Shown one piece after another: positions 5,800 to 33,321 of a stretch of DNA of 33,321 bases. The first letter of the stretch is position 1. Each line of letters starts with the position of its first letter. The translations under genes were made by a program, and so were the position numbers. This DNA is from Gemmatimonadota bacterium. Lineage in GTDB: Bacteria; Gemmatimonadota; Gemmatimonadetes; Gemmatimonadales; Gemmatimonadaceae. A model generated the notes under the pieces. The model was not told the DNA's origin. It saw only the letters and a program-made list of their open reading frames with translations, and searched no databases. The DNA lies in assembly GCA_028876525.1 (NCBI GenBank), contig JAGWRI010000103.1, positions 1 to 33,321 on the forward strand. Reading direction: 5' to 3'.

Positions 5800-6912
5800 T
5801 CACTCCACGATCACCGTCCCGGTCATTCCGTCCTCTTCGTGCGGCGTGCAGAAGTAGCGATACACACCCGGCACGCGGAACACGTATTCGAACACCATCC
5901 CCGGCTTGAGATCGCCGGAGTCGAAGGGCATGGCGCCGGCGGGAAGCTCGGCATCTCCCGCGTGCGCGGCGTCGGCCGGAACGTCGGTCACGGTGTGCAC
6001 CAGGTTCGACCCGTTGATCCACAACACCGACTGGCCCGCTCGAATGCGCACCGTATCGGGGACATACCGCTCGTGGTCGGTCAGGTGCACCTCGGCGCCG
6101 ATGGGCGACCCGGCAGTCTCCGGGCTCGCGACCACGGCACTCGATCCGCGGTTCACGAACCGCGACAGACCGATCGGAATGGTGAATTCGAATCCCCACC
6201 GCTCGATGCCGGGAATCCCCACCGAGGCTCCCTCGAGCGTGGTCGTATTGGCATTCGACACGTTGATGGACAGGGTGTGCGGCGTGTACGGAATGGCGAG
6301 CTGCAGCCCCGCGCTCCAGGCGATGTCCTCGCCCGGCCCGCGCTGCACCAGGCTCACCGCGTCGGCGGCGAGCGCGACGAATGGTCCGAGCCGAAGCGTC
6401 GCGCCGCCTCCGGCGGCCGCGGCCGCGTCGCCCCGCCGGAACGCGCTGAACGCCCGGCCCACGCCGAACAGCTGCAAGCGACCCAGCCGGCGTTCGACGG
6501 TCGCCTCGCCGTCCCAGCTTCTCGATGCGTCGTTGTACGCGCCGTGGATCGCGACGTCCACCGGCGCACCCGACGACTCGGGCAGTGGCACCCATCGCAC
6601 GAAGTACTCCACGGCGTTGGGATGCCCGGTCACGAGCAATGAATTCGTGGCGTACCGCGCCCCCGCCATGAGGCGCCACGGCAGCGGCGCGCCGAGCAGG
6701 AACGTGGGAGAGTTCAGCACCTTGTTGGCCGACCCGCCGGTGGTCGTGAACCGGTGCGTGAGGTCGAAGATCAGCGTGCCCGGCGCCCCCGTCCACGTGC
6801 CGAGTATGTCCGGCGGATGGTCGAGCACGCTCTGAGCCACAGCGGGGGACGCGGCGAACCACAGGGCACCGAACGCCGCCACGCCCGTGACGGCGCGGAT
6901 CGAAGGGCGCAT
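5800..6912 (-). CDS. DUF5777-like beta-barrel protein fused to a C-terminal cupredoxin
   Basis: The protein is 370 aa with a signal peptide ending near AVAQ (residue 27). Residues ~30-260 have the features of DUF5777-type barrels: an early FDLTHRF segment and repeated amphipathic strands with aromatic girdles. Residues ~275-370 form a plastocyanin/azurin-like cupredoxin with all four type-1 copper ligands visible: H306 (LVHTV), C355, H358 and M363 (C-TP-H-EEDG-M). The protein would bind copper in the periplasm or at the outer membrane, possibly as an electron carrier or copper handler. The start lies 4 bases beyond the stop of the upstream cupredoxin lipoprotein, so the two form an operon. 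The barrel assignment is pattern-based and less certain than the cupredoxin part. Confidence 0.8.
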   Translation of the reverse strand: MRPSIRAVTGVAAFGALWFAASPAVAQSVLDHPPDILGTWTGAPGTLIFDLTHRFTTTGGSANKVLNSPTFLLGAPLPWRLMAGARYATNSLLVTGHPNAVEYFVRWVPLPESSGAPVDVAIHGAYNDASRSWDGEATVERRLGRLQLFGVGRAFSAFRRGDAAAAAGGGATLRLGPFVALAADAVSLVQRGPGEDIAWSAGLQLAIPYTPHTLSINVSNANTTTLEGASVGIPGIERWGFEFTIPIGLSRFVNRGSSAVVASPETAGSPIGAEVHLTDHERYVPDTVRIRAGQSVLWINGSNLVHTVTDVPADAAHAGDAELPAGAMPFDSGDLKPGMVFEYVFRVPGVYRYFCTPHEEDGMTGTVIVE

Positions 6913-6916
6913 GGTC

Positions 6917-7330
6917 CTATTTCACCACGATCACTCCGTACATCCCACTGCCGGCGGAGCCGTGGTACTTGCAGTGGTAGGCATACGTGCCGGCCTGACT
7001 GAACGTGTGGCTGAAGGTGGCTCCGCCCGCCATGTCGCCGCTGTCGAACCCGCCCGAGGCGTCGGCGGTGGCCGAGTGCGTCACCGCGTCCTTGTTGGTC
7101 CACGTCACCGTCGAGCCCACCGCGACGGTGTCGAACTTCGGAGAGAACGTGAGGTTCTGCTCGGCGATGTTGTTGCTGCTGCCGCCGGTGCTCGTGCCGC
7201 CGGTGTTGCCGGGACTCGTGGAGTACGGCGAACCGCCGGAGCTGCCGCCGCACGCGGCGAGCGCGAGGACGGACGCGAGCACAGCGGATAGCGCAATGGA
7301 AGTGCGGGGCGAGCGACGACTGGACATCAT
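6917..7330 (-). CDS. Plastocyanin-like cupredoxin lipoprotein
   Basis: The protein is 137 aa from the ATG at 7330, preceded by a strong GGAGGA 7-8 bases upstream; a second ATG follows immediately. The same frame is open much further upstream, but that extension looks non-coding. The N-terminus is a lipoprotein signal with lipobox LAAC followed by a Gly/Ser/Thr-rich linker. The remainder is one cupredoxin domain with copper ligands H85 (VTHSAT), C120, H123 and M130 (HCKYHGSAGSGM). It is expected to be a membrane-anchored periplasmic blue copper protein that carries electrons. It is the first gene of a two-gene operon with the DUF5777-cupredoxin fusion. The natural redox partner is not visible in the window. 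Confidence 0.88.
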   Translation of the reverse strand: MMSSRRSPRTSIALSAVLASVLALAACGGSSGGSPYSTSPGNTGGTSTGGSSNNIAEQNLTFSPKFDTVAVGSTVTWTNKDAVTHSATADASGGFDSGDMAGGATFSHTFSQAGTYAYHCKYHGSAGSGMYGVIVVK

Positions 7331-7766
7331 GGCGAGTTCCTCCGCGGGGGTGGATTCGGCACGGCGCATCGCCAGTTGAAGCCCCTCCCCCCGGAGTTGG
7401 TTCCCCGGCGTCCGCATCCATCCCGCGTGCCCTGAGCAAACGCCAAACGCCGCATCCCTCCTGTTTCCCCTACGCAATGCCCCGCATTCGCGCCGCAACG
7501 GCAGGAATGGCGGCGCCGGCATGTCCGACTGACGCACGAGAGCTGCGTCCGCTCCTGCGTCCGGTGCCTTCGTCACACGGCTGACGCGACGAACGCATGC
7601 ACGATCCTTACAATCTCCGCACGTCCGTTCGTGACTCCACCGTCGCCGTGTGCGGTTCTTGTGGTCACGACGTCGTGTTGCGGTATGGCGCGCGTCGGCG
7701 GTCGGTCGCGCGCTGCGCAACGCCGGCGACTTGCGGTGAACGCGACTCCCTTCGGTGGAGGAGTGA
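7331..7766. other. 436-base divergent intergenic region
   Basis: The region lies between the cupredoxin operon (minus) and the secreted orphan (plus) and must carry both promoters. An ATG-initiated frame at 7597 contains CGSCGH, but it runs far into the next gene and turns into Arg/Pro-rich shadow sequence. No RNA gene, repeat or convincing -35/-10 pair was seen. The minus-strand Shine-Dalgarno is at about 7338-7343 and the plus-strand one at 7757-7763. Confidence 0.4.
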
Positions 7767-8474
7767 ATGCAGAAATTGCTCCGCGCGGCACGAGTGGCGA
7801 CCACGACACTCGCGACGGCGCTCGGCGTTGCGCCCGCACTGCCGGCCCAGGCCCCCGCGCCGCAACCGCGCAGTGCGCCCATCGTGCAGTATCTCATGGC
7901 CAGTCGAGCCGCCGAGATCGCGCTGGCGCGAAGCGCGGCGCCGAAGGCGATCTCGGACGGAGCCACGATCATGGTGCTCGGCCGCGAGGGATACGAACGG
8001 GCCATCAGCGGACAGGACGGATTCGTCTGCCTGGTGGAGCGGTCGTGGGCGTCGCCGTTCGACAGCCCGGGATTCTGGAACCCGGCCATTCGAGGCCCGG
8101 CCTGTTACAATCCGGCCGGCGCGCGGTCCATTCTCCCAGGCATCTATATGAGAACGCAGCTAGCCCTGGCCGGGCTGTCGAAGAACCAGATTCTCGACAG
8201 CGTGCGGGTGGCCTTTGCCGCGCACCGGCTGGCCAGCCCGGAACCCGGCGCGATGGCGTACATGATGTCGAAGATGGGCCACGTGGGCGCCCAGGCCGTG
8301 CGCTGGCTGCCGCATCTCATGTTCGAGCTGCCCAGGGCGGCACACGCGGACTGGGGGGCGAACGTGGCGGGCTCCCCCATCCTGCTTCATCAGGACTCGC
8401 TCGACCCCGTCGTCACGGAATTTCTGATTCCCGTGGCCACCTGGTCGGACGGAACGCCCGCGCGGTCTCCCTGA
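7767..8474 (+). CDS. Secreted protein of unknown function
   Basis: The protein is 235 aa from an ATG with GGAGGAG 3 bases upstream. The first ~28 residues form a signal peptide ending in an AQA-type site. The mature part starts with a helical segment (IVQYLMASRAAEIALARSAAP), then a compact region with two cysteines (GFVCLVERSW and GPACYNP) that could form a disulfide, and ends in a beta-rich segment with DWGANVAGSPILLHQD and VVTEFLIPVATWSDG. I do not recognise the family. It stands alone between a divergent promoter region and the tRNA gene. A periplasmic location is inferred from the signal peptide. Confidence 0.75.
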   Translation: MQKLLRAARVATTTLATALGVAPALPAQAPAPQPRSAPIVQYLMASRAAEIALARSAAPKAISDGATIMVLGREGYERAISGQDGFVCLVERSWASPFDSPGFWNPAIRGPACYNPAGARSILPGIYMRTQLALAGLSKNQILDSVRVAFAAHRLASPEPGAMAYMMSKMGHVGAQAVRWLPHLMFELPRAAHADWGANVAGSPILLHQDSLDPVVTEFLIPVATWSDGTPARSP

Positions 8475-20653: not shown

Positions 20654-21553
20654 ATGCCCGCCGAACGGCGTCGCCGCGTCGCGCCGCGCCAGGTGGCGCT
20701 CGATCGCTCGCTCGAGGCGCTGCCGCTGTTTCGTCTGAGCGATTCCCCGGAAGATGCGCCGGTGGCGTACACGACCGACACCGGCGGACGGTGGCGCGTG
20801 CTGCCCGCCCCGGGCGACCGGCTGCCGGGAACCTTCGATCAGGACGTGTACGTCGAGCTCATGCGGCGGTTCCAGGAAGCCGGGAGTCCGCTGGACGGCG
20901 CCGTCTCGTTCACGCTGCACGCCTTTTTGCATTCCATGGACCGACAGGTCGACGGCCGGACGTACGAGCAGTTGCGCACGGCGCTCGTACGCCTGGAGCG
21001 CACCGTGCTGGAATCGGCGGGCGCATACCGGCTGGCCGGAGAGGACGTCAATCTGGACGGGCAGTTCACGGTGCTCAGCGCGGTGGCAATCGAGCGCCGG
21101 CGGGCGGTCGACCGGGGTCAGCTGGCGCTGTTCGACGCGACGATGGCGCCCGAGCCTGGCGCGGCACGGGCCGTGCTGGCGCCGATCATCCGCGCCAACC
21201 TCGTCGCCCGTCATCAGGTCACCCTGTCCGTGCCCCGCTACCGGGCGCTGGGCTCGCCGGTCGCCCGCCGGTTGTACCGGCTGCTCGAAGTGGCGCGAGC
21301 GGAAAACCGTCTGGCCTGGCGGGTGCCGCTGGAGCGCCTCAAGGAGATGCTCCCCCTGGGCCAGCGGTACCCGTCGCACCTCCAGCGGGTGCTGCAACCG
21401 GCGCACGAGCTGCTCCGCGCGGAGGGCATCCTCCGCAGCGCCGCGATCCGGCAGGAGCGCCGTCGCTGGTACGTGGATTACGTGCTCGGCAGCCGGACTC
21501 CGGGGCCGGCGGAGGGGGCGGAAGGGGCGGAGGGGGGCGGCCGGCAGGGGTGA
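20654..21553 (+). CDS. Plasmid-type replication initiator protein A (RepA/RPA family) homologue
   Basis: The protein is 299 aa. It opens with a basic tail (MPAERRRRVAPRQVALDRSLEALPLFRLSD). It then shows the RPA-family pattern: RWRVLPAPGDRLPGTFDQDVYVELMRRFQEAG, SFTLHAFLHSMDRQVDGRTYEQLRTALVRLERT, a central FTVLSAVAIERRR strand, and a second winged-helix-like half with SPVARRLYRLLEVARAEN and LPLGQRYPSHLQRVLQPAHELL. The two halves resemble the twin winged-helix layout of plasmid Rep proteins. The C-terminus is Gly/Glu-rich (PAEGAEGAEGGGRQG). No partition genes or iterons were seen nearby. It may be a relic of an integrated plasmid or a chromosomal DNA-binding protein of the same fold. Confidence 0.72.
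   Translation: MPAERRRRVAPRQVALDRSLEALPLFRLSDSPEDAPVAYTTDTGGRWRVLPAPGDRLPGTFDQDVYVELMRRFQEAGSPLDGAVSFTLHAFLHSMDRQVDGRTYEQLRTALVRLERTVLESAGAYRLAGEDVNLDGQFTVLSAVAIERRRAVDRGQLALFDATMAPEPGAARAVLAPIIRANLVARHQVTLSVPRYRALGSPVARRLYRLLEVARAENRLAWRVPLERLKEMLPLGQRYPSHLQRVLQPAHELLRAEGILRSAAIRQERRRWYVDYVLGSRTPGPAEGAEGAEGGGRQG
21514..21550 (+). other. G-run cluster at the end of the Rep-like gene
   Basis: Runs of five, four, six and four G (21514-21518, 21524-21527, 21532-21537 and 21547-21550) with loops of 5, 4 and 9 bases could form a quadruplex. They encode the Gly/Glu-rich C-terminus. Confidence 0.4.
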
Positions 21554-23455: not shown

Positions 23456-24493
23456 ATGCGTCGAATCCCCCTTGCCGCCGCGCTCGCCGCGGCGGCCGTC
23501 GCGTGTGTCCGTCCGTCGCCGCCCCGGCTCGCGCCGTTCCCGGGCGAGCGCCACCTGGCCAACATCCGCCAGCTCACGTTCGGCGGCGAGAACGCCGAAG
23601 CGTATTTCAGCCGCGACGGCAAGCGGCTCATCTTCCAGTCCACGCGCGACGGCCGCGCCTGCGATCAGCAATTCGTGATGAACGTGGACGGCACCGGCCT
23701 GCGGCGAGTATCCACGGGCGCCGGAAAGACCACCTGCGGCTATTTCTTCGGCGACGACCGGAAGATCTTCTTCGCGTCGACGCACGCCGTGGACACGGCC
23801 TGCTCACCGAAACCCGATCCGTCCAAGGGATACGTCTGGCGGCTCGACCCGTACGACATCTACGCCGCCAATGCCGACGGGACGGACCTCGAGCGGCTCA
23901 CGCGCTACGGGGTCTACACCGCCGAGGGTACGCTGTCGCCCGACGGACAGACGATCGTGTTCACCTCGCTCAAGGACGGCGATCTCGACTTGTACACGAT
24001 GAAGATCGATGGAACCGACGTCCGGCGCCTCACGACGGCGCCGGGCTACGACGGCGGGGCCTTCTTCTCGCCCGACGGCTCGAAGATCGTCTACCGCGCC
24101 TGGCACCCCACCGACACGGCGCTGACCAACTACCAGGCGCTGCTTCGCGAGGGCCTCGTGCGCCCCAACCGGATGGAAATCTGGGTGATGAACGCCGACG
24201 GCTCCGACCAGCACCAGGTGACCTCGTTGGGCGGCGCCAACTTCGCGCCCTTCTTCACGCCCGACGGGAAGCGCATCATCTTCGCGTCGAACTACAAGAA
24301 TCCGCACAGTCGCAACTTCGACCTGTACCTCGTGAACCTCGACGGCTCGGGGCTCGAGCAGGTGACGACGCACCCCGAGTTCGACGGATTTCCGATGTTC
24401 AGTCCCGACGGCAAGGAACTCGTCTGGGCGTCCGACCGGCACGGGGAGAAGGTGGGCGAGACGGACATCTTCATCGCCGACTGGGTGCCCTGA
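23456..24493 (+). CDS. TolB/PD40-type beta-propeller lipoprotein
   Basis: The protein is 345 aa from the ATG at 23456, with TGAGGT 5 bases upstream and 8 bases after the S41 stop, so the two form an operon. A lipoprotein signal has a cysteine at about residue 17 (AAAVAC). The rest is made of repeated PD40/WD40-like blades: [79 protein letters not shown], and [17 protein letters not shown]. About six blades can be seen. It would be a periplasmic propeller used for protein or ligand binding. Proteins of this type often accompany proteases, which fits its neighbour. The ligand is unknown. Confidence 0.9.
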
Positions 24494-24498
24494 ACCAT

Positions 24499-24510
24499 GA
24501 CCGGCCGGTC
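24499..24510. other. 12-base perfect palindrome
   Basis: GACCGGCCGGTC lies in the 32-base gap between the propeller gene and the GDP-fucose synthase gene. It may be a weak hairpin or protein site, or chance in GC-rich DNA. Confidence 0.25.
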
Positions 24511-24525
24511 GAGCGCGGCGCGTCC

Positions 24526-25467
24526 ATGAATCGCGACAGCGTCGTCTACGTGGCGGGCCACCGCGGCCTCGTCGGGGCGGCCCTCGAGCGTGTCCTGCGG
24601 GCCCGTGGCTTCGCGCACCTCGTGCACCGCACCCACGCCGAACTCGACCTGGCCGACCGGAACGCGGTGAATGCGTTCTTCGCCGCCGAGCAGCCGGAAT
24701 ACGTGTTCCTGGCCGCGGCCCTCGTCGGCGGCATCGCCGCCAATGCGGCGTACCCCGCTGACTTCATCCGCAACAATCTCGAGGTGCAGCTCAGCGTCAT
24801 CGACGCCGCGTACCGCCACGGCGTCCGGAAGCTGATGTTCCTCGGCAGCGCGTGCATCTACCCCAAGCTCTGCCCGCAGCCGATCCGGGAAGAGTACCTG
24901 CTCACGGGCCCGCTGGAGCCCACGAACGCGCCGTACGCGATCGCCAAGATCGCCGGGATCTCGCTTTGCCAGTCGTACGACCGGCAGTACGGCGCCAATT
25001 TCGTCAGCGTGATGCCCACCAATCTCTACGGTCCGGGAGATCGGTTCGACCTCCAGAACAGCCACGTGCTCCCGGCCCTCCTCCGCCGCCTGCACGAAGC
25101 GAAGCGGGCCGGCGTCCCGTCCGTCACCATCTGGGGCACGGGAACCCCGCGCCGGGAATTCATGCACGTCGACGACATGGCCGGCGCCTGCGTGCATCTC
25201 ATGGAGCACTACGATTCGCCCGAGATCATCAACGTGGGCACGGGCGAAGACATCTCGATCGCCGATCTGGCCCGCAGGATTCAGGCGCTCGTCGGCTACG
25301 AGGGCCGGCTCGAATTCGACCCGTCCAAGCCCGACGGCACTCCGCTGCGCCGGCTCGACATCTCGCGCCTGCTCGCCACCGGATGGACCCCGTCCATCGG
25401 TCTCGATCAAGGTCTGGACCAGACCTACCGATGGTATCTGGAGAACGTCGGCCACCTGCGCAGCTGA
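24526..25467 (+). CDS. fcl: GDP-L-fucose synthase
   Basis: The protein is 313 aa, the family length. It converts GDP-4-keto-6-deoxy-mannose to GDP-L-fucose by epimerisation and NADPH reduction. The Rossmann motif is [14 protein letters not shown], followed by [59 protein letters not shown] (Ser/Tyr/Lys catalytic set), [35 protein letters not shown] and the terminal [18 protein letters not shown]. All are typical of Fcl/WcaG. GDP-mannose dehydratase, the preceding enzyme, is not in the window. It feeds surface polysaccharide synthesis, consistent with the WecA-like gene downstream. No good Shine-Dalgarno is visible before the ATG at 24526. Confidence 0.95.
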
Positions 25468-25500
25468 AGCCGGCAGTTAAAGCTCTCACGGCGCAGGCAA

Positions 25501-25524
25501 CGGACGTTTCGATCCGACCTTTTT
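25501..25524 (+). terminator. Probable terminator after fcl
   Basis: CGGACG pairs with CG(A)TCCG around a TTT loop (one bulged A), followed by ACC and TTTTT at 25520-25524. The stem is short, but the T-run is unusual in this GC-rich region. Confidence 0.45.
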
Positions 25525-25654
25525 CCCGTCCCTGTCGCGTTTCTGGTCGTTGCCTAGGAATTGGTCGAGCGTCAAGTTGAGGGCGCCGATCTGACGCGGC
25601 ATACGACCGGCTTTGTGCAGCGGGGCGCCGAGGCCATTTCATACGGTGAACGCG

Positions 25655-27172
25655 ATGGTTCTCGCCATCAGTCTGATTGCAGCGTTGACGGCACTCCTGG
25701 CCACGGCCTGGCTGGTGCGCGTCGCGCCTGCGCAACGTGAACCGAGCGTCGTTCCGATCACGTACCGCCCCGGCTCCGCCCCTCCGGTTCCTCGCGTCGG
25801 TGGAGCCGCCGTATTCATGGCCGTGGTGGTGGCGCTGGCAGTGGCCGCGCCCCTCAGCGTTCGCGGCATCAACAGCCTGCTAGGCCGAGGCGATCTGTAC
25901 GGCGGGGTCTTCGCCGGAGCGACCCTGCTCCTGGCCGTTGGGCTGGCCGACGACTTCCTTGACCTTTCGCCGGCGGTGAAGCTGCTCGCCCAGGTGTTCG
26001 CGGCGATGCTCGCCGCGTCGGGCGGCGTGTCGCTGCGCTATCTCTCGTTCGGCGCCGATCACGTGGTGACGCTCGGATGGATCGGCGTTCCGCTCGCGGT
26101 GCTCTGGATCGTCGCCGTCACCAATGCGTTCAACTTCATCGACGGGTTGGACGGACTGGCCTCGAGCATCGGCATCGTGGGGTTCGGCGCCGTGGCGGTT
26201 TCCGCGGCGCTCCTCGGGCGCCGCGACGTGCTGCTGCTGAGCGTGGCGATGATCGGGGCGCTCGTCGGCTTCCTGCGCTACAACTTCGCGCCGGCCCGCA
26301 TCTATCTCGGGGACGGCGGCAGTCTCTTCGTCGGGTATCTCCTGGCCGCGCTCTCGATCGAGGGCGCCACGTCGCCGAAGACGGGCGCGCTGGTCTATGT
26401 CCCGCTGTTCGCCCTGGCCCTTCCGCTGCTCGACGCGGCGGTCGCCATCGTGCGTCGCTGGCTCCGGCGGATGCCGGTCTGGAAGGGCGATCACCGCCAC
26501 ATCCATCACCGCGTGTTGGCGCTGGGGCTCTCGAAGCGCGGCAGCGTGGGTGTCCTGGCGGCGGTTGCCGGCCTGTTCGCCATGACCGGCCTGGCCGCGG
26601 CGTTCGCGGGACCGGACGCGCTCGCTGCGCGGCTCATCCTCGCCGCCGCGGTGAGCATCGCGGTGATCGCGGCCGGGATCCGGCGGCTCGATTACTACGA
26701 GTTCGCGGCGGTGCGGACGGCCGTCCGGCTCCGGGCTTCGGAATGGCGCCGGTTCGTCCGCGAGGAAATTCGCCTGCGCGACGCCGAGCGGGAGCTGGCC
26801 ACGTCGCACGACCTCAACGAGCTGCGGACGGGGCTGGACCGGTGCGCGCTGGCGTTCGGGCTCGACCGGATCGAGATTTCGCGGCAGCGCCCGCGGTTGC
26901 GGCGCGCATGGCATGGCGAGCATCTCGACGTGCCGGTATCCGACGTGGGCACGCCATCGAGCGATGACTGGTTCCTCCGTGTCTGGCATGGAGAATACGA
27001 TTCCCCGCGGCCCGAGTTGGTGCACCGGGTCGCGCAGGCCCTGTCGCGGTCGTGCGGTCACTGGCTGCGCGACTACGATCTGCTCGGCGCCGCACCGTGG
27101 ACCGTGGCCGCGCGGGAGGGGCCGCGGCGTTCGTCCTGGACGTCCAGCGCTCGCCATCTCGCCAAGGCATAG
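25655..27172 (+). CDS. WecA/MraY-family polyprenyl-phosphate sugar-1-phosphate transferase with extra C-terminal domain
   Basis: The protein is 505 aa from the ATG at 25655 (GGTGA ~5 bases upstream). Residues 1-345 hold about ten transmembrane helices and the family motifs: PRVGG, the Mg-binding D99-D100-x-x-D103 (LADDFLD), NAFNFIDGLDGLA, YLGDGGSLFVGYLL and HRHIHHR (280-286). It transfers a sugar-1-phosphate, probably GlcNAc-1-P, to undecaprenyl phosphate in the cytoplasmic membrane, starting glycan synthesis. Residues ~345-505 form a cytoplasmic extension not found in WecA or MraY (SEWRRFVREEIRLRDAERELATSHDLNELRTGLDRCALAFGLDRIEIS...). It is mixed alpha/beta and only loosely GAF-like. The next gene, lasso B1, starts 22 bases after the stop, so co-transcription with the lasso genes is possible. 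Confidence 0.88.
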   Translation: MVLAISLIAALTALLATAWLVRVAPAQREPSVVPITYRPGSAPPVPRVGGAAVFMAVVVALAVAAPLSVRGINSLLGRGDLYGGVFAGATLLLAVGLADDFLDLSPAVKLLAQVFAAMLAASGGVSLRYLSFGADHVVTLGWIGVPLAVLWIVAVTNAFNFIDGLDGLASSIGIVGFGAVAVSAALLGRRDVLLLSVAMIGALVGFLRYNFAPARIYLGDGGSLFVGYLLAALSIEGATSPKTGALVYVPLFALALPLLDAAVAIVRRWLRRMPVWKGDHRHIHHRVLALGLSKRGSVGVLAAVAGLFAMTGLAAAFAGPDALAARLILAAAVSIAVIAAGIRRLDYYEFAAVRTAVRLRASEWRRFVREEIRLRDAERELATSHDLNELRTGLDRCALAFGLDRIEISRQRPRLRRAWHGEHLDVPVSDVGTPSSDDWFLRVWHGEYDSPRPELVHRVAQALSRSCGHWLRDYDLLGAAPWTVAAREGPRRSSWTSSARHLAKA

Positions 27173-27193: not shown

Positions 27194-27493
27194 GTGAGCG
27201 CGCCGCTCTCGCTCGACTCGCGGGTCATCGCCACCCCCGACCAGCTGTCCAGCGAGCTGGCCGGTGAGGTCGTGATCCTGAGCCTCGCCGACGGCGTCTA
27301 CTACGGCCTCGACGAGGTGGGCGCCTACATCTGGCAGCGGCTGCGCGAGCCGCGGGCCGTTCGGGACATCGTGGACGACGTCGTGAACCGCTACGCGGTG
27401 GACCGCGAGCGCTGCGAGCACGATCTGCTGGCGTTCCTCGAGGATCTCCGGGCCCATCGCCTCGCCGAGGTCGTCGCGAGCGAGTCCGCATGA
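27194..27493 (+). CDS. Lasso peptide B1 protein (PqqD-like RiPP recognition element)
   Basis: The protein is 99 aa from a GTG preceded by GGGGGAG. The PqqD/RRE winged-helix fold is readable: LSSELAGEVVILSLADGVYYGLDEVGAYIWQRLREPRAVRDIVDDVVNRYAVDRERCEHDLLAFLEDLRAHRLAEVV. In lasso systems, B1 binds the precursor leader around its YxxP segment and presents it to the B2 peptidase. Here B1 is a separate gene, directly followed (17 bases) by the cyclase gene; both start with GTGAGCGCG. This pairing with an asparagine-synthetase-like gene and two YxxP precursors makes the assignment secure. Confidence 0.92.
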   Translation: MSAPLSLDSRVIATPDQLSSELAGEVVILSLADGVYYGLDEVGAYIWQRLREPRAVRDIVDDVVNRYAVDRERCEHDLLAFLEDLRAHRLAEVVASESA

Positions 27494-27509
27494 CGGCAGC
27501 GCGCCGCGC

Positions 27510-29399
27510 GTGAGCGCGTTCGTCGGCGTGCGATCGCTGGACGGGCGGCCGGTCGATCCCGCGCTGATCCGGCGGCTCACCGCCGCGCTGGCCTACGCTG
27601 CCCCCGACGGGAGCGCGGCCCGCGTATCGCGCGAAGTGGGCCTCGGGTTCGCGCACCTGCGCCGCGCCCGCGGCGCGCCGGCCATTTCCGGGCGGTCGCC
27701 CATGCCGGCCACCGACGGGCGCGGCCTGCACCTCGTGGCCGACGCCGATCTGGACGACCGCGAGCGGCTCCGGGCGGAGCTGGCGGCCGCCGGGGCGCCA
27801 CAGCGACCGGAGGCCCAGGATGCGGCGCTCATCCTCGCCGCGTACCGGACGTGGGGCCCGCGGTGCGCCGGACGTCTGCACGGCGACTTCTCGTTCGCGG
27901 TGTGGGACGGACCCGGGCACATGCTGTTCCTGGCCCGCGACCGGTTCGGCGCGCGACCTCTCTATACGGCCCGGACGCCCGAAATATTTGCGTTTTCGAA
28001 TAGTCTGGACGTGCTGCGGACGGTGCCGGGCGTCGCCGGCGGGCTGGACGAGGGCGGCATCGGCGACCTCCTCCGCATCGGATACGACACCGACCCCGCC
28101 GGCACCGTCTTCTCGGCCGTGCGGTGCGTGCCGCCGGCGCACACGCTGACGGTCCATGACCGCGCCGCTGCGCCGGCCCGCTACTGGGATCTGCCCACCG
28201 AGGGCGCCGTCCGGCTGCCGACCGTCGAGGCCTACGCGGAGCGGTTCGCCGAGCTGCTGGGTACGGCAGTCGCCGACCGGATGCGAGGCGCCGACGCCGT
28301 CGCGCTTCTCCTCAGCGGCGGCCGTGACTCCACCGCCGTGGCCGCCATGGCGCGCGAGGCGGCCGATCGCTCCGGCCGCCCCGACCTCTACGCGGTGACC
28401 GGCGTCTACGACTACGCCATGCCCGACGAGGAGCGGCGGTACGCCGGTCTCGCCGCGGCCGCGCTGCGAATTCCGGCGGAGTTCCTGCCGCAGGACGAGT
28501 ACGGGTGGTACGAAGGCGACGATCGCCCCGGTCTCTGGCGCCCCGAGCCGGCCGAATCGCCGCTCCTCGCCGCCGACGTCGACCTCCACGCGCGTGCCGC
28601 CGCGCACGCGCGCGTCGCGCTCACCGGAGAGGGCGGCGACGCCGCGCTGCGCGAAACCGAGTCGCGGCTGGCACGCCTGCTGCTTGGCGGTCGCCTGTGG
28701 ACGGCGGCTGCGGAATCGGCGCGCTACGTCCGGCTCCACCGGCGCCTGCCGCGCCCCGGCTTCCGCCGGCTGCGGGAGCGCCGCCGCGGCGACCGCTCAC
28801 CCTACGCCGCGGTCCCGCCCTGGCTGCGCCCCGACTTCATCGCCCGAGCCGGACTTGGCGAGCGATGGGCAGCCCTCGAGGCCGAAGACCAACGGCAATG
28901 GGCTCGGCATCCCGTCCGCCCCGAAGCGTTCACCAAGCTCCGCTCGCTGTTCTGGGCGCGGTGTTCCGAAGAGGAGCATCCCACCGCGACCGGCCAGCCG
29001 CTGGTGCTGCGGCACCCGTTCCTGGACGAGCGGCTGGTGGAGTTCCTGCTCGCGCTCCCGGCGGAGCAGTGGTTGAACGACAAGGGAATCGTGGTGGCGG
29101 CCATGCGGCGGCGCTTGCCGCGCGAGGTCGTGTATCGTGAGAAGACGCCGCTGGTGGGAGAACCGTACGCGAATGCATTCCGCCACGGGGGCCGCCGGCC
29201 CGGCCGCGCCGACTTCTCGGTCCAAGCCCTCGAGTACGTGGATCCGGACGCGCTCCTCGCGCCGATACCGGGAGCGCGCGACGCCGACGCGTGGGACTGG
29301 GTGCGCGCCTACAGCCTCTCCCGATGGCTGGATCGGCTGGCCGCCGGACGCACGCTCCCGCGCAACGAGGCGGCGGTACAAATGGACGTTGAGGCGTGA
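27510..29399 (+). CDS. Lasso peptide macrolactam cyclase (asparagine synthetase-like C protein)
   Basis: The protein is 629 aa from a GTG. It is homologous to asparagine synthetase B. It adenylates the side chain of the ring Asp or Glu in the core peptide and joins it to the N-terminal amine. The N-terminal glutaminase-like domain (1-~220) begins MSAFVGVRS and lacks the Cys2 needed for glutamine hydrolysis, as expected for lasso cyclases. The pyrophosphatase loop is S269-G-G-R-D-S274. The later region ALTGEGGDAALRE and FLDERLVEFLLALPAEQWLNDKGIVVAAMRRRLPREVVYREKT are typical of the synthetase domain. It lies between B1 and the two precursor genes and is presumably transcribed with B1. Confidence 0.93.
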   Translation: MSAFVGVRSLDGRPVDPALIRRLTAALAYAAPDGSAARVSREVGLGFAHLRRARGAPAISGRSPMPATDGRGLHLVADADLDDRERLRAELAAAGAPQRPEAQDAALILAAYRTWGPRCAGRLHGDFSFAVWDGPGHMLFLARDRFGARPLYTARTPEIFAFSNSLDVLRTVPGVAGGLDEGGIGDLLRIGYDTDPAGTVFSAVRCVPPAHTLTVHDRAAAPARYWDLPTEGAVRLPTVEAYAERFAELLGTAVADRMRGADAVALLLSGGRDSTAVAAMAREAADRSGRPDLYAVTGVYDYAMPDEERRYAGLAAAALRIPAEFLPQDEYGWYEGDDRPGLWRPEPAESPLLAADVDLHARAAAHARVALTGEGGDAALRETESRLARLLLGGRLWTAAAESARYVRLHRRLPRPGFRRLRERRRGDRSPYAAVPPWLRPDFIARAGLGERWAALEAEDQRQWARHPVRPEAFTKLRSLFWARCSEEEHPTATGQPLVLRHPFLDERLVEFLLALPAEQWLNDKGIVVAAMRRRLPREVVYREKTPLVGEPYANAFRHGGRRPGRADFSVQALEYVDPDALLAPIPGARDADAWDWVRAYSLSRWLDRLAAGRTLPRNEAAVQMDVEA

Positions 29400-29462
29400 C
29401 TCGAGGCCTGCCCTGACCTCGGGATTGCGCCTGACGTGACGGAATCTGCCGGCAAGTAGACT

Positions 29463-29490
29463 TTGCTTATCGTATTGGGAAGCATATGAT
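29463..29490 (+). promoter_or_regulatory. Candidate promoter of the first lasso precursor
   Basis: TTGCTT (29463-29468) and TATGAT (29485-29490) are 16 bases apart in a markedly AT-richer stretch. The -10 differs from consensus at one position. It ends 5 bases before the ATG at 29496, so the transcript would be leaderless. GGGAAG at 29477-29482 is a distant (13-base) Shine-Dalgarno alternative if transcription starts further upstream. Confidence 0.5.
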
Positions 29491-29495
29491 CTGCC

Positions 29496-29708
29496 ATGCC
29501 GCGCGCGCATGAGAAGCAGACGGATTTCCGGCCACCGGTTGGTCCGAACGAATGCTTGCAAGTTGATATCGGACAAAAGGTTACCGGAAAGGCTGAGTAC
29601 CATCGGCCGCAGCTGACCGTCTATGGATCCGTGGGTGACATGACCCGCACCGTCGGCACCCGTGGCCGCCGCGATGCGAGGCGCAGCCGCCGGCGCACCG
29701 GCTACTAA
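29496..29708 (+). CDS. Lasso peptide precursor 1 (A1), arginine-rich core
   Basis: The precursor is 70 aa. The leader contains YHRPQLTVYGSVGDMTR (residues 35-51), matching the lasso pattern YxxPxLxxxGxxxxxT with Thr50 at position -2 of the predicted cleavage site. The predicted core is TVGTRGRRDARRSRRRTGY (52-70, 19 residues, bases 29649-29705). Asp9 is the only acidic residue, so an isopeptide ring T1-D9 of nine residues is expected, as in streptomonomicin-type cores that start with Ser-Leu-Gly. Eight of 19 residues are Arg. An alternative core starting at Gly3 would give a seven-residue ring and also leaves a Thr at -2 in this precursor. The leader is unusually long, with an extra N-terminal segment of ~34 residues containing one Cys. 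The end product is inferred. Confidence 0.88.
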   Translation: MPRAHEKQTDFRPPVGPNECLQVDIGQKVTGKAEYHRPQLTVYGSVGDMTRTVGTRGRRDARRSRRRTGY

Positions 29709-29719
29709 GTTCCGCCGAC

Positions 29720-29746
29720 GGACCGCCCTGGACAGCGGGCTCGTCC
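29720..29746 (+). promoter_or_regulatory. Hairpin between the two precursor genes
   Basis: GGAC/GTCC and GCCC/GGGC form an interrupted stem with an 8-base loop, starting 11 bases after the A1 stop. There is no T-run. It may stabilise the A1 transcript or reduce read-through into A2. Confidence 0.3.
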
Positions 29747-29763
29747 GAGGCTAGCAATTCCTG

Positions 29764-30012
29764 ATGGATTGGAATCAAAGGATTTCGGCGTCTGATGTTT
29801 CCGGGGCCGAGGTGATGCCACCTCGCCAGGGGCCAACCCAGCCGGACGCCGAGGGGCGCTCCGCCGGCCAGTCGCGGCGGGACGACGGCGGCGGCGACTC
29901 GTATCGCTCGCCCAAGTTGACCCGATTCGGGCCGCTTCGCGAGCTGACCGCGAACGGCGGCACGGTTGGCAAGACCGACCACGTGACCAAGTTCACGCGC
30001 ACGGGATACTGA
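29764..30012 (+). CDS. Lasso peptide precursor 2 (A2)
   Basis: The precursor is 82 aa from the ATG at 29764. An in-frame ATG at 29815 has a better-placed GGGG/GAGG upstream and would give a 65-residue precursor. The leader segment YRSPKLTRFGPLRELTA (47-63) has exactly the same YxxPxLxxxGxxxxxT spacing as A1, with Thr62 at -2. The predicted core is NGGTVGKTDHVTKFTRTGY (64-82, 19 residues, bases 29953-30009). Asp9 is again the only acidic residue, giving a nine-residue ring N1-D9. Compared with the A1 core it shares G3, T4, G6, D9 and the last four residues RTGY. Asn at position 1 is unusual; starts at Gly2 or Gly3 (rings of 8 or 7) are alternatives but move Thr away from -2. Confidence 0.88.
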   Translation: MDWNQRISASDVSGAEVMPPRQGPTQPDAEGRSAGQSRRDDGGGDSYRSPKLTRFGPLRELTANGGTVGKTDHVTKFTRTGY

Positions 30013-30098
30013 GCCGACTTCGTGCCGGCGTCGGCGAGGCAGCCGCAACGCGCGGGCTGTCGGGAGGGCAACGCCCGGCGTATCCTCCCCACACATCC

Positions 30099-31067
30099 AT
30101 GGCTCCCTTCTACGCGCGCGCCTTCGGGCTGACGCTTGCGGCGGACGTGCCCCTGCCCGGTCTGTCGCCGGCCGGTGCCGGCACACCGGACGTGCAGCTC
30201 CACCTGGACGGTTTTCCGGGCTGGTATCGAGAAGACACTCACCGCGGGGTGGAGATCTGGTCGTCCGACCATGCAGAGTCGGCGGCGGACGCGGCGGCGG
30301 TCCGATCAGTGCTGGACGGCCGATTCCTCGTCGTAGCCTACGGCGACGGCATGGAATTCCTGCTCAGCCGGCGCGGTGACGAGGTGTGGGTCCGGGGCCC
30401 CGAGGGTTTCTCGCCCGAGACCGCGGCGACGTATCTGCTCGGTCCGGTGATCGGGCTCCTGCTCCGCCTGCGCGGCGTGGTGTGTCTGCATGGCAGCGCG
30501 GTGGCGGTGGGTGGGAACCGCGCCATCGCGTTCGTCGGCGACGCCGGTGCCGGGAAATCCACCATTGCCGCCGCGTTCGCGCTGCGCGGGGAGCGGGTGC
30601 TGACCGACGACATCGCGGCGCTCTCGCGGCACGGGAGCGTGTGGGAGGTGGAGCCCGGAGTGCCGTCGGTGCGGCTGTGGGACGACTCGGTGGCGCTGCT
30701 GCTGGACACGCCGGAAGCGCTGCCCCTGATGGCAGCAGGGTGGGAGAAGCGGCACCTGGATCTGGCGTCGCGCGGGGCCGGCTTCTCCGCCGACCGGCCG
30801 CTCCCGCTGGCCGGCGTCTTCGTGCTCGTGCCGGGCCCCGACGGGTCCGGCGCCGGGCCCCGCCGGCTGCCACTGCGGGAGGCGCTGATCGCGCTCGTGC
30901 GCAACACCTATGCGAACGTGCTGCTCGACCGCGACCTGCGAGCCGCGGAATTCGAAGCCCTCTCCCGCCTCGTCTCGGCCGTGCCGGTCTGGAGCGTGCC
31001 CGCGCCGGCGTCGCGCGCCGAACTCGACGATTTCTGCGCCGCCATGACGCGCGGAGGGCCCGGGTGA
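30099..31067 (+). CDS. HPr-kinase-like protein of the lasso cluster
   Basis: The protein is 322 aa. The C-terminal half resembles the catalytic domain of HPr kinase/phosphorylase: H131 in CLHGSAV, Walker A G147-DAGAGKST (K153), and D170-D171 in LTDDIAAL. The N-terminal half (FYARAFGLTLAADVPLPGLSP) is the segment typical of HPrK-like proteins in RiPP clusters, not of true HPr kinases. In paeninodin-type lasso clusters, related kinases phosphorylate the C-terminal Ser of the precursor. Here both cores end in RTGY, so Thr17 or Tyr19 would be the available hydroxyls. This is an inference. The next gene begins 21 bases downstream. No Shine-Dalgarno is visible at the ATG. Confidence 0.82.
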   Translation: MAPFYARAFGLTLAADVPLPGLSPAGAGTPDVQLHLDGFPGWYREDTHRGVEIWSSDHAESAADAAAVRSVLDGRFLVVAYGDGMEFLLSRRGDEVWVRGPEGFSPETAATYLLGPVIGLLLRLRGVVCLHGSAVAVGGNRAIAFVGDAGAGKSTIAAAFALRGERVLTDDIAALSRHGSVWEVEPGVPSVRLWDDSVALLLDTPEALPLMAAGWEKRHLDLASRGAGFSADRPLPLAGVFVLVPGPDGSGAGPRRLPLREALIALVRNTYANVLLDRDLRAAEFEALSRLVSAVPVWSVPAPASRAELDDFCAAMTRGGPG

Positions 31068-31088
31068 GGCCGGCCATCGGGGCCGGGC

Positions 31089-32279
31089 GTGTCTGACGCC
31101 GCGCGGGCGTCCCCGAGCGCGCTCGAGCTCGCGTGCGCCGTGGCGCGGGCCCGCCTGGACGAGCGCGCGGCCGCGCGGCGGGACGCCGCGGTGGCGGGCG
31201 TCGCCGACTGGCGCGAGATGCCCCCGTTGCTCGCGCGGCACGGCCTCCTGGCGCTGGCGGCGGGGCATCTCGCGCCGGCGAGGGCGGACATACCTGAATC
31301 AGTATGGCTGGCCATCGAAGCCGAGGCCCGCGCCGCCCGCGCGCGCGCGCTCGCCGGCGCCGCGGAGCTCTACCGCCTCGCCCGGGCCTGCGAGGAGGCC
31401 GGCATCCCGATGCTCGCCATCAAGGGACCCGTGCTCGCCCAGCGCGCGTACGGAGACATCGGCGCCCGGGCGTTCACCGATCTCGACCTGCTCGTCGCGC
31501 CCGGTGCGGTTCCTGGCGCGCTGGCGCTGCTCGGCGAGCTCGGCTACGCGCCGGAGTACCGGTTCACGCCGCGGCGCGACGCCTGGTTCCGGCACGTCGA
31601 CGGGGATTACCCGCTGATTCACGGCCAAACGGGACAGCTCGTGGAGCTGCACGCGCGGCCGTTGTCGCGGCGGTTCGTCGGGATGGCGCCGTTCGAGGCG
31701 CTGTGGGAGCGCCGCATGCCGGTGACACTCGGCGACCGGCCGATTGCCGCGCTCGGCGACGACGACGCCTTCCTGCTGCAGGCCCTGCACGGCGGCAAGC
31801 ATCGGTGGGAGCGGCTGGAATGGGTCGCGGCCACGGGACAGCTGCTCCGTCGGCGCGGAGGCGACGCCCGGGCCGTGCTCGAGGCCGCGCCCGCCGCGAG
31901 ACGGGCGGTGCTCGTGGCCTGTCACGTCGCCGCGCAATGGGTAGAGGCGCCCCTGAGCGTGCCGATGCGCGACGCCTGTCGGCGCGATCCCGCGGTCGCG
32001 CGGCTCGCCGATCGCGCCTGGCGGCGGATCGCCTCCGGCGCCCGCGACGAAGGGAGCGGCGAGACCGCGGGCAAGCTACGCTTCAACTACCGGCTGCAGG
32101 GCGGCGTGGCCGCGCGTCTGCGGTTCGCGTACCGGTGGGCCTTCTGGCCGTCGCCCGAAGACTGGGGGGCTCTGTCGCTGCCCGATTGGCTGTTCGTCGC
32201 CTATCGCGTGGTGCGGCCGGTGCGTCTGCTGGCGCGCTACCTGCGGCCAGCACGCCCACGGGAGACGCCCGATGGCTGA
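31089..32279 (+). CDS. Nucleotidyltransferase-like protein of the lasso cluster (NTP_transf_5 family)
   Basis: The protein is 396 aa from a GTG. After an N-terminal helical region, the family motif appears: LAIKGPVLAQRAYGDIGARAFTDLDLLVAP, with K112-G113 and D131-L-D133 matching the nucleotidyltransferase-fold pattern of the uncharacterised NTP_transf_5 (PF14907-type) proteins. These often occur in RiPP and lasso clusters. It continues with LLGELGYAPEYRF and a LVELHARPLSRRF segment. The C-terminal half is helical. It might transfer a nucleotide or other group to the peptide, or to the kinase product, but no function has been shown for this protein. It overlaps the ABC gene by 8 bases, showing translational coupling. 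Confidence 0.78.
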   Translation: MSDAARASPSALELACAVARARLDERAAARRDAAVAGVADWREMPPLLARHGLLALAAGHLAPARADIPESVWLAIEAEARAARARALAGAAELYRLARACEEAGIPMLAIKGPVLAQRAYGDIGARAFTDLDLLVAPGAVPGALALLGELGYAPEYRFTPRRDAWFRHVDGDYPLIHGQTGQLVELHARPLSRRFVGMAPFEALWERRMPVTLGDRPIAALGDDDAFLLQALHGGKHRWERLEWVAATGQLLRRRGGDARAVLEAAPAARRAVLVACHVAAQWVEAPLSVPMRDACRRDPAVARLADRAWRRIASGARDEGSGETAGKLRFNYRLQGGVAARLRFAYRWAFWPSPEDWGALSLPDWLFVAYRVVRPVRLLARYLRPARPRETPDG

Positions 32280-33321
32280 TCGTCCCCTCGCGTCGGCCCG
32301 GCAGCTGGCGCGGGACGTGCTTCGCGGGCGCGCCGGCCGTGTGTGGCTCGTGGCGGTGCTGTCCGTCGTGAGCGGAGCCGCGCAGGGCGCGACGGTGATG
32401 CTGCTGGTGCCGCTCCTCGGCGCCGCCGGCGTTCCGATTCCCGGCAGCGGCGCGGTTGGCGCAATCCAGCGCGGAATCGCGCACGCGTTCGCGCTGGTGG
32501 GGCTCGCGCCCTCGCTTCCCGCGGTGCTCGCCGCGTTCGTCGCCGTGGCGTGGCTCCAGGCGGCGGTGCAGCGCCGCGAACTGGTGGAATCCATGCGTCT
32601 CGAGCAGGACGTGGAGCGCGACCTGCGGACGTCGCTGTACGCGGCGCTGCTCCAGGCCCGGTGGGAGTTCTTCACGGCGCGCCGGAGCAGCGACCTCGCG
32701 CACGTCATCACGCGCGATGCGGATCGCGCGGCGGTGGCGGTCTCGTTCCTTCTGCGCGGCCTGGGCCAGGCGATCTCGGCGGTGGTCTACCTCGGGTTCG
32801 CCGTCGCGGTGTCGGTGCCGGCCACGGTCGCGGCGCTGCTCGGCGGTTCATTGTTGGCCACAGCGCTCCGGCCCACGCTGCGCACGGCGCACCGCACCGG
32901 CGTGGCCCTGTCCGAAACGTCGGCGGAAACGCTCGCCATGGCGATGCAGCACGTCGAGAGCATCAAGCTGGTGAAAAGCTACGGCGCCGAGGACCGGACG
33001 CTGGCCGCGTTCGACGCCCTGGCCGGCCGCTCGGCGCGGGCTGCGGTGGACGCCACGCGCGCCCACGCCGGCGCGCACGTGGCAACCGCGGCGGGATCGG
33101 CGACGCTACTCGCCGCGGTGCTGCTCGCCACCCTCGCGTGGCTGCACCTGCCCGCGGCCGCCACGCTCGTGCTGGCGTTCCTGTTCTGGCGGCTGCTCCC
33201 CCGGCTGACGGACGTGCAGCACAGCCTCCGCGACGCCTTCCACGAGCTTCCCGGCTACGAGGCCCTGCAGCGCGTGCGCACCGCGGCCGTCACGGCGCGC
33301 GAGGCGGCGGCGCGGCCCGCC
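32272..33321 (+). CDS. ABC exporter, transmembrane part (lasso D-type transporter, partial)
   Basis: An open frame starts at ATG 32272, overlapping the previous gene by 8 bases, and runs 350 codons to the window edge without a stop. It has the layout of a type I ABC exporter membrane domain: a first helix (VWLVAVLSVVSGAAQGATVMLLVPLLGAA), further helices (LPAVLAAFVAVAWLQAAV, AISAVVYLGFAVAVSVPATVAALLGG, LLAAVLLATLAWLHLPAAATLVLAFLFWRLLP) and cytoplasmic loops with LRTSLYAALLQARWEFFTARRSSDLAHVITRDADRAAVAVS and ESIKLVKSYGAED, which are typical coupling segments. The ATPase domain lies beyond the edge. It is expected to export the mature lasso peptide and give self-immunity. Confidence 0.88.
   Translation, partial: MADRPLASARQLARDVLRGRAGRVWLVAVLSVVSGAAQGATVMLLVPLLGAAGVPIPGSGAVGAIQRGIAHAFALVGLAPSLPAVLAAFVAVAWLQAAVQRRELVESMRLEQDVERDLRTSLYAALLQARWEFFTARRSSDLAHVITRDADRAAVAVSFLLRGLGQAISAVVYLGFAVAVSVPATVAALLGGSLLATALRPTLRTAHRTGVALSETSAETLAMAMQHVESIKLVKSYGAEDRTLAAFDALAGRSARAAVDATRAHAGAHVATAAGSATLLAAVLLATLAWLHLPAAATLVLAFLFWRLLPRLTDVQHSLRDAFHELPGYEALQRVRTAAVTAREAAARPA

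Follow-up and report, generated by a model that had tools for sequence, protein, structure and literature searches.

Gene content of the locus

The window analysed here, 33,321 bases in full, is the whole of one contig (C22) from a 3.2-Mb genome assembled in 351 contigs. An initial annotation had suggested a Gemmatimonadota origin, which is supported, and the genome belongs to the same family as Gemmatimonas sp. PR.004. Positions 27194-33321 are a lasso peptide cluster in which every gene up to the contig end lies on the + strand at close spacing, and the coordinates together with Pfam and NCBIfam matches confirm the gene set proposed in that annotation, namely B1, C, two precursors (A1 and A2), a kinase (K), a nucleotidyltransferase-like protein (N) and an exporter (D).

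The cluster begins with B1 (27194-27493, 99 aa), a PqqD-like leader-binding protein (RRE) that scores 73 bits against Pfam PqqD and 74.9 bits against its best NCBIfam model, lasso_PqqD, slightly below the cut-off of 80; it is the sole PqqD match in the genome. C (27510-29399, 629 aa), the lasso macrolactam synthetase, carries GATase_7 and Asn_synthase domains in Pfam, and its best NCBIfam model is the lasso cyclase (277.6 bits, below the cut-off of 525). As previously proposed, this asparagine-synthetase-like protein is devoid of Cys2, since its N-terminus reads M-S-A-F, and it retains the SGGxDS motif (here SGGRDS). A tblastn search with C against plasmids returned partial, distant matches only.

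Downstream of the precursors, K (30099-31067) has no Pfam match and scores weakly against HprK_rel_A in NCBIfam. Its residues H131, P-loop K153, D170 and D171, the paeninodin-type His-Lys-Asp-Asp set, are invariant across 13 lasso-linked kinases, and a K profile retrieves HPr kinases as its best matches in PDB, in agreement with the earlier HPr-kinase-like assignment. The adjoining N (31089-32279), of PsmN/BsfN type, likewise matches NTP_transf_5 as described before (Pfam 148 bits) and keeps the KG...DxD residues K112, G113, D131 and D133, which are invariant in 12 homologues; an N profile search of PDB yielded no believable relative. The membrane domain of the ABC exporter D (32272-33321, Pfam ABC_membrane) is truncated at 33321 because the window spans the entire contig, and an intact 582-aa homologue with an ABC_tran domain is present in a congener locus.

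The precursor genes A1 (29496-29708, 70 aa; leader motif YHRPQLTVYGSVGDMT from 29598) and A2 (29764-30012, 82 aa; leader motif YRSPKLTRFGPLRELT from 29902) lie in tandem between C and K. They hold the only matches in all six frames of the window to the strict YxxPxLxxxGxxxxxT motif followed by a short tail, which upholds the description of two tandem precursors with canonical leaders; the same strict motif is absent from all 60 third-order Markov sequences. The best NCBIfam model for A1 is lasso_cyano (31.1, cut-off 33). Lasso leaders place YxxPxL at positions -17 to -12 and Thr at -2 (PMC10368454), and core starts were set from this spacing of Tyr -17, Pro -14, Leu -12 and Thr -2, together with alignment with kin. 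The predicted cores are TVGTRGRRDARRSRRRTGY for A1 (29649-29705), with a ring from T1 to D9, and NGGTVGKTDHVTKFTRTGY for A2 (29953-30009), with a ring from N1 to D9. Asp9 occurs in both cores under this spacing, and likewise in the congener core KVGPQGKKDHSGSRRTGY; it lies within the range of core positions 7-9 described for the lasso ring acid (PMC10368454). An alternative A1 start at G3, giving a 7-residue ring, ranks lower, since T1 agrees better with the leader spacing and with the kin alignment. The A1 core is strongly basic (8 of 19 residues are Arg). Both cores end in RTGY, with Thr third from the end. A first residue of Thr or Asn, as here, or of Lys, as in kin, is unusual among lasso cores, which counts against the reading we prefer. 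Applied to the related precursors of L037, L040, L084, L090 and similar loci, the Thr(-2) rule places the first ring acid at residue 10 or 11 of the core, outside the usual 7-9; these precursors would either form larger rings or be cleaved at a shifted site.

The last gene before B1 encodes a WecA/MraY-like glycosyl-1-phosphate transferase (25637-27172, + strand; Glycos_transf_4, Pfam 135 bits). Its counterparts also adjoin B1 in the loci L035 of genome G003 (71% identical) and L036 of G011 (44%). Positions 23503-27172 comprise a gene of the NAD-dependent sugar epimerase type and the WecA-like transferase, directly upstream of B1. These sugar genes, the match of C to the XrtA amidotransferase model in NCBIfam and the weak HprK_rel_A score of K could also be taken to indicate a PqqD/HprK-related polysaccharide locus or other RiPP locus, similar to XrtA/PEP-CTERM or HprK_rel_A systems. 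We regard such a non-lasso origin as highly improbable, given that lasso models are the best NCBIfam matches of B1, C and A1, that two strict leader motifs are each followed by an acid at position 9, and that most relatives carry a local B2 gene between B1 and C. The lasso-specific models and the strict leader motifs support the lasso cluster originally claimed.

Elsewhere on the contig, a Pfam RPA (replication initiator protein A) match of 58.6 bits lies at 20654-21553 (+ strand), and the contig looks chromosomal; two adjacent genes on the - strand (5800-6912 and 6917-8089) encode proteins roughly 370-390 aa long that both carry a plastocyanin/azurin domain at the C-terminus.

Related loci and an unlinked candidate B2 gene

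The complete locus L035 of the congener G003 has the order GT4-B1-C-A-K-N-D found in the window, with identities of 61% for C, 55% for K, 57% for N, 63% for D and 69% for B1. It holds a single precursor, ending in VTAKVGPQGKKDHSGSRRTGY, in whose core D9 and RTGY are kept while the remainder varies. Of two further congeners, G002 carries a B1 gene where one of its contigs ends, and G001 gave no match to C, K or B1.

A K profile run across 288 genomes of the order gave about 80 strong kinase matches, and 60 further loci were retrieved and annotated with profiles built in this analysis. About 70 K-containing lasso loci are found in the order, most of them with B1, B2, C, K, N and D, and B2 often directly follows B1. 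Since most K loci also carry N and the lasso genes, lasso clusters with K and N are common in the order and the window is no exception. A search with a narrower kinase alignment recovered relatives including some beyond the order; the same kind of search with the C protein alone found no loci. Lasso-type C, B1 and B2 genes with HprK-like kinases occur on the haloarchaeal contigs of L216 (Natronoglomus) and L225 (Halosimplex). The cyanobacterial L204, L205 and L207-L209 are lasso-like loci that include K and encode precursors in pairs, with YSEPELKAHGKISGLTxxVGGSGGFxTT in common. The tails of these precursors are variable and most do not end in [KR][ST], so that the kinases there may act at a different position.

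Profile annotation detected no B2 gene in the window or in the complete congener cluster. A B2 gene downstream of the exporter was considered and rejected, because the congener locus runs past the exporter and has none there. The genome of the window has a single Transglut_core3 gene above the cut-off, on contig C114 (6338-6865, - strand; L142). Orthologues lie in G001 (L143) and G003 (L144), so that three congeners share the site and its neighbouring genes. The C114 protein keeps the Cys and AHAW; it is divergent and, in a weak tree, does not group with the B2 proteins from clusters of the nearest relatives. A second Transglut_core3 match, on contig C191, was set aside (23 bits, in a 713-aa frame). 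The C114 gene is the best candidate for the B2 of the cluster. The lack of a B2 gene within the cluster, the divergence of the C114 protein and the occurrence of its gene in G001, which gave no match to lasso C, K or B1, count against the reading we prefer. The initial annotation had named the lack of a B2-type peptidase in the genome as an argument against a lasso cluster; a candidate B2-type gene is present, at an unlinked site.

The cluster might instead be decaying or non-functional in the genus through loss of B2, as B2 is missing beside B1 or C in both the window and L035 and present in most relatives, and G001 is without a C, K or B1 match. We consider decay quite unlikely: all frames are intact to the contig end, catalytic residues are kept, the precursors are conserved between two species, and a B2-like gene occupies the same site in three congeners. 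Moreover, pseudomycoidin reportedly still forms in vivo when the leader and its peptidase are lacking (Zyubko 2019, cited in PMC9266682). A functional cluster served by B2 in trans is the reading followed below.

Precursor tails and the kinase tree

To relate the kinase to its possible substrates, 80 unique precursors were split by leader type rather than by tail into 47 window-like precursors and 33 of the FGTFRELT type, the latter being mostly Ser-ended. The tail [KR][ST]x(0-2) is found at the end of 43 of the 47 window-like precursors, against a mean of 6.9 and a maximum of 15 in 2000 shuffles of the last ten residues. As a control, loci lacking any strong kinase match in their neighbourhood were selected from a B2 search, giving 8 lasso loci with 11 precursors. 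These end in GFGL, GFQL, AAN, GSGN or GIGG, and none of the 11 has the motif (Fisher p = 6e-9 for motif against kinase presence, ignoring relatedness). Counting the K-less L171 (G016), whose single, ambiguous candidate precursor on the opposite strand ends in KKT, changes this to p = 5e-8, with relatedness again ignored. The K-less controls are few and phylogenetically distinct, which weighs against our preferred reading.

In a tree of 74 kinases built with a quick method, those with mostly Ser-ended partners are separated from those with mostly Thr-ended partners (SH-aLRT 88 for the Thr side). When each kinase is labelled by the acceptor of its precursor and the distance of that residue from the end, the tree requires 25 changes, compared with 43.8 for shuffled labels and with 0 of 200 shuffles as low. 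The window and congener kinases form a starred pair labelled Thr+2. The kinases nearest by path are acidobacterial, with precursors ending in RTSV, KTHV, NKTSFG and KTLM; an RTHV tail also occurs among the precursors of the nearest Acidobacteriota kinases.

The tail motif and its clustering on the kinase tree point to Thr17 as the predicted phosphate acceptor in both cores. Tyr19 ranks below Thr17 as a target because kin without the Tyr keep [KR]T. The two positions described for other systems do not fit these cores: neither has the C-terminal Ser of the paeninodin type, and A1, A2 and the congener core all carry Gly at position 3, where the bsf type has Ser/Thr.

It is unlikely, in our assessment, that K acts in a lasso cluster on another site, be it the C-terminal Tyr, a ring Thr (T4, comparable to Ser3 for BsfK) or several sites at once. 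BsfK modifies Ser3 (PMC10368454), which shows that a lasso kinase need not act on the tail, and a terminal Tyr and Thr4 are indeed present in both cores. However, Ser/Thr is absent from position 3 in both, BsfK does not accept Tyr at its own site (PMC10368454), and position 4 of the congener core is Pro. When numbered from the C-terminal end, the three congeneric cores have no hydroxyl residues in common other than the tail Thr and Tyr, and kin with 0-1 residue after the Thr lack the Tyr and keep [KR]T. Phosphorylation of Thr17 accordingly remains our preferred reading of K.

Proposed pathway and comparison with known systems

Taken together, we think it probable that the locus is an operon for two cysteine-free lasso peptides (class II type), with K phosphorylating Thr17, B2 acting in trans and N decorating the phosphate. 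From the gene content and order, the leader and ring-acid positions, the catalytic residues, their conservation in kin and the kinase-tail correlation, we infer every reaction that follows, as well as the site of phosphorylation, the involvement of the C114 protease and the function of N. B1 would bind the YxxPxL leader and present the precursor, which K, aided by B1, would phosphorylate on Thr17 in the conserved R-T-G-Y tail. B2 from C114 would then cut in trans after the residue that follows Thr(-2), and C would join the new N-terminus to Asp9, closing a ring of nine residues through which the tail is threaded. N may add a sugar or nucleotide to the phosphate in a PsmN-like manner, and D would export the product.

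Enzyme precedents (PadeK, PsmK/PsmN and BsfK/BsfB1) count in favour of this scheme: the substrate of PadeK is the precursor rather than the threaded peptide (PMC9266682), BsfB1 speeds BsfK (PMC10368454), and PsmN decorates the phosphate in vivo. That the lasso kinases known so far act on a C-terminal Ser or on Ser3, and not on an internal tail Thr, counts against it. We are evenly poised on the broader proposal that a kinase clade of Gemmatimonadota and Acidobacteriota phosphorylates a Thr or Ser that is preceded by a basic residue and lies within three residues of the C-terminus, in a mode distinct from C-terminal Ser and Ser3, that N decorates that phosphate, and that in the window's genus the protease acts from an unlinked locus.

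A tail motif that tracks the kinase tree offers a simple, testable rule for lasso kinase sites and a means of predicting modified masses in genome mining, and it singles out Gemmatimonadota and Acidobacteriota as phyla in which lasso clusters with a kinase are plentiful. If B2 is unlinked, mining tools confined to clusters would label such clusters incomplete. A literature search, thin on subscription journals, found no report of lasso phosphorylation at an internal tail Thr and no characterised Gemmatimonadota lasso peptide.

The combination of K and N, which the initial annotation had held to be undescribed, has been published in the psm, bsf and Butyrivibrio clusters; what is unusual is the cluster's lack of a B2 gene, shared with a congener, and the predicted acceptor site. 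The bsf cluster of Bradymonas sediminis (PMC10368454) likewise has A, B1, C and D with a kinase and a nucleotidyltransferase, a YxxPxL leader and a B1-aided kinase; it differs in its linked B2, Ile(-2) and ring Ser3 target, compared with the unlinked B2, Thr(-2), absence of Ser/Thr3 and two precursors of the window. The psm cluster of Bacillus pseudomycoides, as relayed from Zyubko 2019 in PMC9266682 and PMC8498205, also has both K and N, and its product is phosphorylated and then hexosylated; there the acceptor is a C-terminal Ser and the system includes B2, whereas RTGY terminates the window cores and the candidate B2 gene lies outside the cluster. The paeninodin pade cluster and the related PadeK, ThcoK and SyanK share with the window an HPr-kinase-like K with the His-Lys-Asp-Asp set. 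C-terminal Ser is the published acceptor of PadeK, ThcoK, SyanK and PsmK (PMC9266682, PMC10368454), a feature that the Ser-ended FGTFRELT precursors of the order fit better than the window does. The Butyrivibrio lasso clusters (PMC7533575) also unite an HPr kinase and a nucleotidyltransferase in one cluster, in another phylum and with extra regulators and glycosyltransferases. Within the same family, the Gemmatimonas sp. PR.004 locus (PNKL01000001.1, L192) resembles the window in B1, C, K, N, D and the [KR]T tail, and differs from it in having B2 adjoining B1, Thr as the last residue and a core that starts with Lys. With its gene set already known, the cluster by itself is one more member of these systems, and it is the phosphate position predicted from the tails that would differ from those described so far.
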